Positions 36,286 to 39,093 of a stretch of DNA of 64,000 bases are shown in pieces. Positions within the stretch are counted from its first letter, which is position 1, and each line of letters opens with the position of its first letter. Position numbers and translations under genes: made by a program. Source of the stretch: Pseudonocardia hierapolitana (lineage in GTDB: Bacteria > Actinomycetota > Actinomycetes > Mycobacteriales > Pseudonocardiaceae); the NCBI RefSeq assembly GCF_007994075.1, contig NZ_VIWU01000001.1, forward strand, positions 248,001 to 312,000, read 5' to 3'. The notes beneath the pieces are model-generated. The model was not told the DNA's origin and searched no databases. It was given only the letters and a program-made list of their open reading frames with translations.

Positions 36286-37113
36286 GTGCCCGAAGGCGAC
36301 ACGGTCCACCTCACCGCGAAGCGGCTGCGTGCGGCGCTGTCCGGGCACCTGCTCCTGCGCGGCGAGCTACGGCACCCGCAGCTCGTCGAGCACGACCTCG
36401 CCGGTCGCACGGTGCTCGACGTCCGTTCCGTCGGCAAGCACCTGTTCACGCGGTTCGACGACGGCCGCAGCCTGCACAGCCACCTGCGCCTCGACGGTTC
36501 CTGGCACCTCTACCGCCCCGGCATGCCGTGGCAGCGGCCCGCCCACCAGGCCCGCGCCGTGCTGGAGACGGCCGAGCGCACCGCTGTCGGGTTCCTGCTG
36601 CACGACCTCGAGCTGCTGCCCACCGCCGAGGAGAGCCGGCTGGTCGGGCATCTGGGGCCCGACCTGCTCGATCCCGCGTGGAGCGACGACCACACCGCCG
36701 AGGCGCTGCGCCGGTTCACCGCCCGCGGGGCGTCCGAGCTCGGGCTCGTCCTGCTCGAGCAGCGGGTGATGGCCGGCGTGGGCAACCTCTACAAGAACGA
36801 GGTGTGCTTCCTGCTCGGGCTCTCGCCGTGGACGCTCGCGCGCGACGTCCCCGACCCGGCCGCCGCGGTCACCCTCGCCCGCGACCTGCTGCTCCGCAAC
36901 GCAGACCGCCCGGAGCAGTCCACCACCGGCGAGCTGGCCCGCGGCCGGCAGCACTGGGTGTACGACCGCGGCGGGCAACGCTGCCGCCGTTGCGGCACCC
37001 GCATCCGCACCGCGAAGCAGGGCGACGACGTCCACGCCCGCATGACGTGGTGGTGCCCCACCTGCCAACCCGGCCCCTCCCCCACCCGCGAGTCCGGCAA
37101 CCGGACACGGTGA
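36286..37113 (+). CDS. nei: Fpg/Nei-family DNA glycosylase
   Basis: 275 residues. After start-Met removal the N-terminus is PEGDTVH: catalytic Pro and Glu of bifunctional base-excision glycosylases, in the Nei (endonuclease VIII) form. VGKHLFTRF supplies the conserved Lys, GNLYKNEVCFL the H2TH region, and the C-terminal zinc finger has C-RRC (CRRCGTRIRTAKQ) and CPTC. Removes oxidised pyrimidines or ring-opened bases. GTG 36286. Its last codons are the first unit of a 22-bp repeat array that fills the gap to pspA. Confidence 0.92.
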   Translation: MPEGDTVHLTAKRLRAALSGHLLLRGELRHPQLVEHDLAGRTVLDVRSVGKHLFTRFDDGRSLHSHLRLDGSWHLYRPGMPWQRPAHQARAVLETAERTAVGFLLHDLELLPTAEESRLVGHLGPDLLDPAWSDDHTAEALRRFTARGASELGLVLLEQRVMAGVGNLYKNEVCFLLGLSPWTLARDVPDPAAAVTLARDLLLRNADRPEQSTTGELARGRQHWVYDRGGQRCRRCGTRIRTAKQGDDVHARMTWWCPTCQPGPSPTRESGNRTR

Positions 37114-37495
37114 GTCGGACACCCCCACACGGCGAGTCCGACATCCCATCCGGGCGAGTCCGACATTTCAGCACGGCGAGTCGTGCGAATCAGCACGCAG
37201 TGCAGCGTGCGTGCGGACAGCGAGTACGAGCGGGCGCCGGACTCGCCGCACCGGACGTCGGACTCGCCGCGTCAAGATGCTGGACTCGCCATGTCGAGAT
37301 GCTGGACTCGCCGCGTCGGACGTCGGACTCACCGTGCGGGATTGCAGGACTCGCCGTGCACGAATGCCCGACTCGCCGTGCATGAACGTCGGACTCGCCG
37401 TGCACGAATGCCCGACTCGCCGTGTGTGAACGTCGGACTCGCCGTGCACGAATGCCCGACTCGCCGTGTGTGAACGTCGGACTCGCCGTGCGGGG
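37087..37495. repeat. 22-bp tandem repeat array in two opposing orientations
   Basis: Left block: GGCGAGTC-like octamers start at 37087, 37109, 37131, 37153 and 37175, exactly 22 bp apart. Right block: the reverse complement GACTCGCC starts at 37240, 37261, 37283, 37305, 37326, 37348, 37370, 37392, 37414, 37436, 37458 and 37480, 21-22 bp apart. Right units share GACTCGCCGTG followed by 11 variable bases, and the last seven alternate between two variants, giving a 44-bp higher-order period. About 57 bp of less ordered sequence join the blocks. It lies between convergent nei and pspA. There are no spacers of the CRISPR kind. Not coding: the period shifts the frame. Confidence 0.88.
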
Positions 37496-37572
37496 TGGCG
37501 CGGTCGGGCGGGCTGGAGACGGCGACGCCGCCCGGTCCCTGGCGGGGCGGGCGGCGTCGGGGATCGTGCTGC

Positions 37573-38382
37573 TCAGGCGGTGCCGGGCTGCTGTTGCTTG
37601 TTGAGCTGCTGGGTGGGGGCGGCGGCCTGGTCGCCCGCGGTGACCTCGCCGGCCACGGGGGTGCCGTGCAGCGAGGCGCGGATCTGCTCCAGGCGGCTCG
37701 CGCCCGCCATGTCCACCGTGGACTGCTGGACCTCCAGCATGCGGCCCTGCACCGAGTTGGCCGCAAGGTCGGCCTGGCCGAGGGCGTTGGCGTAGCGACG
37801 CTCGATCTTGTCGCGGACCTCCTCCAGCGACGGGGTGCTCCCCGGCGCCGCGAGCTCGGTCATCTGCCGCAGGGACGCGGCCGCCTGCTCCTGCATCTTG
37901 GCCTGCTCCAGCTGGCTGAGCAGCTTGGTGCGTTCGGCGATCTTCTGCTGCAGCATCATCGAGTTGCGCTCGACGGCCTGCTTCGCCTGCCCGGCGGCCT
38001 GGATCGACTGGTCGTGCAGCGTCTTGAGGTCCTCGACGGACTGCTCGGCGGTGACCAGCTGGGTGGCGAACGCCTGCGCGGCCTGCTCGCGCTGCTGGGC
38101 GGTGGTCTCGTCGCCTGCGGCACGGGCCTGGTCGGCGAGCACGAGCGCCTGCCGAGCGGATGCCTGCAGCTTCTCGATCTCGCCGAGCTGCCGGTTGAGC
38201 TTCATCTCCAGCTGCCGCTGGTTGCCGATCACGGCCGCGGCCTGCTGGGACAGCGCCTGGTGCTGCCGCTGGGCCTCCTCGATGGCCTGCTGGATCTGGA
38301 CCTTCGGGTCGGCGTACTCGTCGACCTTGGACGAGAACAGCGCCATCAGGTACTTCCAGGCCTTCGTGAAACCGTTGGCCAT
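37573..38382 (-). CDS. pspA: Phage-shock protein A homologue (PspA/IM30)
   Basis: 269 residues, almost entirely alpha-helical. [38 protein letters not shown] is the amphipathic membrane-binding start of actinobacterial PspA (Rv2744c type), followed by long coiled coils rich in Gln, Ala and Glu and a Gln/Pro tail. Binds stressed inner membrane on the cytoplasmic side and maintains proton-motive force. ATG 38382 with GGAG upstream. Downstream of clgR by 282 bp; in mycobacteria ClgR activates pspA. The mycobacterial partners PspM/PspN are not adjacent here, where the 22-bp array follows. Confidence 0.93.
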
Positions 38383-38664: not shown

Positions 38665-39093
38665 TCAGGCGGCGCGGACGGACGCCAGCGCGACGGGCTG
38701 CGACGGGACCGGCGTGGCGGGGCGCGGCGCCACCGGGGCGACGGGCGCGACCGGCGACATCGGCGTGAGCGGCCCCTCGTCGGCGGCGGTGGCCAGGCGC
38801 AGGTCCATGTGGCGAAGCCCGATCGGGCGGCGCAGCCGGGCGGCCTCGGCCGCGACGGTCTCGGCGGCGATGGCCTGCGCGGCCTCGGCGAGCAGGTCGC
38901 TGAGGGCGATGTCGAGGGCTTCGCAGATGGCGGCGAGCAGCTCGCTGGAAGGCTCCTTGCGCCCCCGCTCCACCTCGGAGAGGTAGCCGAGGCTCACCCG
39001 GGCGCGCCGTGACACGTCCCGCAACGTGCGTCTGCGTGCCGTGCGCACGCGCCGCAGGCTGCCGCCGATCGCCTCTCTCATCAGCACCGCCAT
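38665..39093 (-). CDS. clgR: ClgR-type transcriptional regulator
   Basis: 142 residues. Cro/CI-type HTH at about 8-65: [51 protein letters not shown], the ClgR signature. Activates clp protease, stress and psp genes in actinobacteria. The C-terminal 45 residues are Ala/Pro-rich with a run of PVA repeats and end in Ala-Ala, as in ClgR proteins that are ClpP substrates. ATG 39093 with GGAGG 6 nt upstream. Order pgsA, clgR, pspA matches mycobacteria; a cinA gene often found between pgsA and clgR in Streptomyces is absent. Confidence 0.93.

Follow-up and report, generated by a model that had tools for sequence, protein, structure and literature searches.

Within the window that we analysed, a 64,000-nucleotide stretch of the Pseudonocardia hierapolitana genome, an array of short repeats lies between two convergent genes: a nei-type DNA glycosylase gene on the forward strand (36286..37113; Pfam Fapy_DNA_glyco, H2TH and zf-FPG_IleRS; start as chosen by the gene caller) and a pspA gene called on the reverse strand (37573..38382; Pfam PspA_IM30). 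The named matches of the nei protein were three Pseudonocardia and two Pseudonocardiales records. A small regulator gene with an HTH_3 domain (38665-39093, reverse strand) adjoins pspA, a position that we take to recall the clgR-pspA pair of other actinobacteria. Direct reading and repeat finders placed the array at 37088-37491, with five reverse and twelve forward units. The left block (37088..37182, reverse strand) carries GCGAGTC or GTGAGTC cores at 37088, 37110, 37132, 37154 and 37176, every step being 22 bp. A unique 57-bp stretch (37183..37239, by direct reading) separates it from the right block (37240..37491, forward strand), whose twelve cores, all GACTCGCC except for one GACTCACC, lie at 37240, 37261, 37283, 37305, 37326, 37348, 37370, 37392, 37414, 37436, 37458 and 37480, with nine steps of 22 bp and two of 21 bp. 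From 37348 to 37479 on the forward strand, two spacer types alternate over six units to form three 44-bp dimers, a sign of two-unit expansion, and a final single unit follows at 37480. An earlier note, made from the letters alone, had described five inverted plus twelve direct units at a nearly strict 22-bp period and an alternation of two variants among the last seven right units; the architecture was borne out by reading and by the repeat finders, and six of those seven units indeed alternate. The note was also correct that the array begins inside the last codons of nei, because the nei stop codon TGA (37111-37113) falls within the second repeat unit, GGTGAGTC. Directly behind pspA lies a GC-rich hairpin with 12-bp arms (37523..37559, inverted-repeat finder). 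Rfam returned no match up to E 1 within 36500-38000. A CRISPR array, which the note had already discounted, was rejected, as the spacers are not unique and agree at 10.3 of 14 positions within a block and at 8.5 between blocks.

The nei-pspA array belongs to a non-coding repeat family that is scattered over many loci in Pseudonocardia and some related genera. Across the 8.86-Mb single contig, the exact pattern GACTCGCC-N14-GACTCGCC occurred 96 times in the forward and 101 times in the reverse orientation (197 pairs), whereas the exact reversed-pattern control gave no match on either strand; allowing up to two mismatches, we counted 222 and 243 matches versus 14 and 10 for the reversed pattern. 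The search for similar arrays elsewhere in the genome, which the earlier note had proposed, was thus clearly positive. A KOPS-like replichore polarity, suspected among the matches listed, found no support in the exact strand totals. An even sample of 1.244 Mb (59 evenly placed chunks together with the window, with chunk L016 left out because it overlaps the window) contained 10 arrays, from which we extrapolated approximately 70 arrays genome-wide. The unit derived from the seed in this genome reads GACTCGCC-GTG-YYG-RRA-YGYCG. In 189 kb of intergenic DNA, 7-mers recurred 647 times at 22 bp and 574 times at 44 bp, against a median background of 47 over lags 8-60.

We then located the arrays relative to genes, using codon-usage gene calls made in this analysis and no annotation. 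In a sample whose DNA is 88% called coding, 57 of 58 core pairs 22 bp apart were intergenic, and the period is not a multiple of 3; a coding repeat was therefore rejected, in keeping with the view of the earlier note. Of the 43 arrays listed from this genome, comprising the 10 from even sampling and targeted ones among the matches listed, 20 had convergent, 18 tandem and 4 divergent neighbouring genes, and 1 was unassigned; an array without a left gene was excluded from the test of gene-orientation type. The 930 intergenic regions with a length of 40 bp or more comprised 141 convergent, 507 tandem and 282 divergent ones; against this background, the arrays were enriched in convergent regions (OR 5.8, p 3e-7), where the note had suggested looking, and depleted from divergent ones (OR 0.23, p 0.002). 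A looser array definition raised the count to 53, of which 24 lay between convergent, 24 between tandem and 4 between divergent genes, with 1 unassigned. Between tandem genes the array was closer to the 3' end of the upstream gene in 12 of 18 regions, and 34 of 37 sense-oriented ends among the arrays listed lay 5-51 nt past the stop codon. In the relative G009, convergent enrichment was weak (6 of 27 arrays vs 16 of 124 regions) and the median distance between stop codon and array start was 2 nt. The ratio of sense to antisense orientation was 45:23 in the own genome, 6:19 in G009 and 3:7 in the relative G022; a sense-orientation rule, true of the own genome, was dropped because the preference flips in the other two. 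Units with a GACTCGC core thus sit mostly just behind stop codons, and core and 22-bp period recur in many of the dialects described below.

The location of the arrays behind stop codons raised the question of whether they act as hairpins at gene ends, with the opposed blocks folding in both convergent transcripts to serve as a bidirectional terminator or as a guard of the mRNA 3' end; the earlier note had similarly proposed a comb-like hairpin or bidirectional terminator. The fold of the window array is strong (-230 kcal/mol, z -7.1), as it must be for an inverted repeat; both orientations occurred within 150 bp in 35 of the 43 own arrays listed, the forward-then-reverse order was present in 20 of 43, and one relative's locus (L117) has a minimal perfect hairpin that includes the core at the same nei-pspA site. 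However, in 26 two-orientation arrays the arms paired at 10.17 of 14 spacer positions within an array vs 10.45 between arrays, and 496 of 500 shuffles were at or above the observed pairing; as an arm matches its partner in the array a little less well than it matches arms from other arrays, it is not the pairing of the hairpin that has been preserved. The slight deficit may reflect avoidance of long perfect palindromes, and unlike partners in REP dimers are remarked on in excerpts of PMC3733652. Moreover, only 7 of 23 G009 arrays had both orientations and 16 of 23 were single-orientation, which, like the flip of the preferred orientation between species, speaks against a hairpin. A simple scan of 36900-37700 for a stem followed by a T-run gave one site, at 37576-37592, and none inside the array. 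By eye, the GC hairpin behind pspA recurs in similar form in many relatives, whether or not they have repeat units there, and in G113 one array follows a hairpin and T-run. The proposal of a comb-like hairpin or bidirectional terminator as the function is weakened, and we regard a gene-end hairpin as an unlikely explanation.

Subsequently, we examined how constraint is distributed along the unit. In the 152 interior slots considered, which came from runs with scored units as anchors, positions 1-5, 7-9, 11 and 19 were 96-100% one base, positions 17 and 6 reached 88% and 87%, and positions 12-16 and 20-22 were variable. The nearest same-strand core within 60 bp lay at 22 bp for 61 of 86 cores in the own genome, 83 of 97 in G009 and 9 of 14 in G022, with the G009 loci chosen for holding arrays and L165 and L166 excluded from the count because they overlap. 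The conserved positions form two stretches spaced by approximately one turn and recurring at every second turn, an arrangement reminiscent of sites for a DNA-binding protein. Variation within own units (positions 6, 10, 12, 16, 18 and 20) is mostly C/T or G/A exchange, partly at CG steps, for which methylation decay is one possible cause.

Comparison of unit consensuses from 14 genomes revealed that they share GACTCGC and an enrichment of A at positions 16 and 17 (51% and 50% vs a background of 13%), with little else in common; the conservation of the core is partly by construction, because relatives were searched for with the core itself. A core-independent search for tandem arrays with a period of 22 or a multiple thereof recovered the core in 16 of 17 own arrays, 2 of 3 in G022 and 32 of 32 in G009, whose loci were chosen for holding arrays. 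The non-core positions differ between species and are common to many loci within one species: in the 1.244-Mb own sample, the own-dialect GACTCGCCGYG occurred 69 times vs twice for the G022 type, and 500 kb of G022 held the own type once and the G022 type 6 times. G009 holds two dialects, in separate arrays among the matches listed; at C1:3528246-3528317 and 3528720-3528813, dialects beginning AACTCGCCGGG and GACTCGCGGGC lie approximately 400 bp apart in opposite orientation. The family itself is real, and its copy number, place, spread and dialects are established. A shared core with one dialect per species, here with the core as search key across the 14 genomes, is also the arrangement that excerpts of PMC3630211 describe for the DNA uptake sequences (DUS) of Neisseriaceae. 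By that analogy, the units would be self-recognition words that label the cell's DNA and are disseminated through biased exchange, but they form tandem arrays rather than single words, at approximately 70 sites rather than thousands, which makes this reading very improbable.

Within the genus, 41 of the 62 Pseudonocardia genomes, own included, contained triple arrays (core ACTCGC, period 22), and 37 of them had at least 5 matches. A family-wide search of 150 genomes in 46 genera gave matches in 17 genomes, one of them the own genome, and in 9 genera. Five further genera carry convincing triple arrays: g26 in 4 of 4 genomes, g30 and g51 in 1 of 1 each, g43 in 1 of 6 (G220) and g53 in 2 of 6 (G113 and G225). 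We set aside G114 (g54), in which the control count was higher, and G164, G166 and G205, with 1-4 matches each. Of 24 genomes from this order, 6 held the octamer pair when one mismatch was allowed, and none had it more than once. The 22-bp period in part of the relatives' matches listed was judged by eye. The longest array among the matches listed, in G004 (C1:2601041-2601465), has approximately 20 head-to-tail units, mostly of two alternating types. Absence of such arrays elsewhere and in relatives, which the earlier note had named as evidence against itself, clearly does not hold. Since 21 of the 62 Pseudonocardia genomes are without triple arrays, any function of the arrays must be dispensable or replaceable.

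At the pspA loci of relatives, a nei match adjoins pspA in 25 of 30, own included, and the nei-pspA gap may be devoid of units, contain arrays with different spacers or hold a single hairpin, although some gaps of 0-14 bp may be artefacts of stop finding. The description of the site as a hypervariable locus holds between species. We also compared the own genome with G022 over 158 orthologous intergenic regions (median flank identity 89.8%); a core was present in both at 5, in the own genome only at 5, in G022 only at 6 and in neither at 142 (Fisher p 1.3e-4), in a table of single cores, some of which occur by chance. Units of the own type stand opposite units of the G022 type at own 5246, 83005, 285114 and 379858, no unit in G022 stands opposite own 160598 and 56825, and own 40540 and 423601 hold G022-type units. 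This pattern suggests a succession of dialects with replacement in place, which is well supported at a few sites; alternatively, repeated insertion at preferred sites may account for the differences.

We also searched for enzymes that might copy the units. RAYT (PF01797) was not found in the own genome (G000) and was absent from 20 of 22 genomes and present in 2; reverse transcriptase (PF00078) was likewise not found in the own genome and was present in 6 of 22, namely G012 and G086 with arrays and G002, G065, G085 and G101 without arrays among those listed. An own reverse transcriptase as copier was accordingly rejected. G086 has four reverse-transcriptase matches with equal scores (C1:2443216, 3617052, 4379204 and 5118170), probably copies of one mobile element. 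Folding of the own-dialect unit is weaker than that of its shuffled versions (-6.8 vs a mean of -11.2), and on the forward strand none of 15 consensus units beats its shuffles by more than 2 sd; the G022 reverse strand exceeds forward-strand shuffles by 2.0 sd for one unit and 2.9 sd for three. Iterons of 22 bp exist, and the arrays consist of short direct repeats, as iteron and clt loci do. Excerpts of PMC3583192 describe such repeats in both kinds of locus. The own array, the sole dialect queried, had no match in 72,556 plasmid records, and no rep or tra link was found among the neighbour functions, which were examined at nei-pspA. A viral origin was rejected because the 5 viral contigs that match the pattern hold other repeats, with a GC content of 31-57%. 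The units are extragenic, multicopy and of mixed orientation with a common motif, as RAYT-borne REP/BIME elements would be; nevertheless, the missing PF01797 and the non-palindromic own unit largely refute a RAYT-borne origin. With no plasmid match for the own array and the viral matches being other repeats, both this origin and descent from plasmid iteron or clt loci are extremely unlikely.

A further reading is that of a selfish or neutral repeat with no host function, which would be propagated through recombination or template switching and accumulate downstream of genes, where it does the least harm, its core and period being needs of the copying itself. Its patchy presence (41 of 62 genomes), the two dialects in one genome and the apparent succession of dialects, the 44-bp dimer expansion and the depletion between divergent genes all fit such an element. 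On the other hand, core and 22-bp period are kept across dialects that otherwise differ, constraint is strongly uneven along the unit, and both enzyme classes searched are absent from the own genome. We consider this reading possible though doubtful.

Collectively, we favour, at a probability of roughly one half, a family of gene-end repeats that is non-autonomous and evolves in concert, each unit being recognised in double-stranded form by a putative protein. For its copying mechanism and function, we infer that units would be copied between loci onto existing units in a conversion-like manner, with no transposase of their own, and that arrays would afterwards grow in 22- and 44-bp steps. Binding of each duplex unit by a sequence-specific protein, with neighbouring sites nearly on one helix face, would explain why the core, the A-rich region around positions 16-17 and the spacing of approximately two turns are kept; this binding is the least certain step. 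Hairpins from opposed blocks would be mostly a by-product if the units are protein-bound duplex. The core may instead be kept as a need of the copying process, as opposed to a binding site, and a model with one protein must explain the two dialects within G009. As a tentative extension, which we hold as a possibility rather than an expectation, the arrays could constitute an undescribed chromosome-marking system of Pseudonocardiaceae, in which a putative dialect-specific protein coats 22-bp phased sites at the ends of transcription units, co-evolves with them and drives or permits their copying between gene ends, with older dialects being overwritten at their sites. Such a system, if true, would bear on topology, on boundaries of transcription or replication, or on recognition of self DNA. 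A non-coding unit here keeps its core and spacing family-wide while the rest is rewritten genome-wide in each species, partly at the same gene ends. The split of the genus into 41 genomes with and 21 without triple arrays would make the responsible gene traceable by gene-content association.

We found no description of the 22-bp family in the literature searched, most subscription papers being outside the scope of the search, and no paper for the octamers searched as words; the word 'repeat' is absent from two genome papers of the group (PMC3469384 and PMC5183585). REPs and uptake sequences are known to evolve in concert, whereas here such evolution would concern non-palindromic units in a genome lacking both enzyme classes searched. 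According to excerpts of PMC12306157 and PMC3733652, REP/BIME elements (also the subject of PMC2817692), CGTC-tagged REPs included, are likewise short extragenic repeats with many copies, opposed orientations and species-specific families, and CGTC-tagged REPs, like the 22-bp family, are without a dedicated transposase; unlike REP/BIME, the own-dialect units are non-palindromic and arranged head-to-tail at a strict period in a genome without RAYT. The DUS dialects resemble the family in having a common core and species dialects across a bacterial family, but, as the same excerpts of PMC3630211 indicate, they are single words and far more numerous than the gene-end tandem arrays. TAACTGA heptamer repeats, as outlined in the abstract of PMC4679880, are genome-wide intergenic sets of a conserved heptamer with a patchy taxonomic distribution; they differ in lying just upstream of start codons and in sequence and spacing, and that abstract describes no dialects. 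Streptomyces plasmid iterons and clt/TRS loci are also arrays of short direct repeats, bound there by proteins, according to excerpts of PMC3583192 and PMC4170104; in those excerpts, iterons and clt belong to a replicon or transfer locus, whereas the 22-bp family occupies many chromosomal gene ends.
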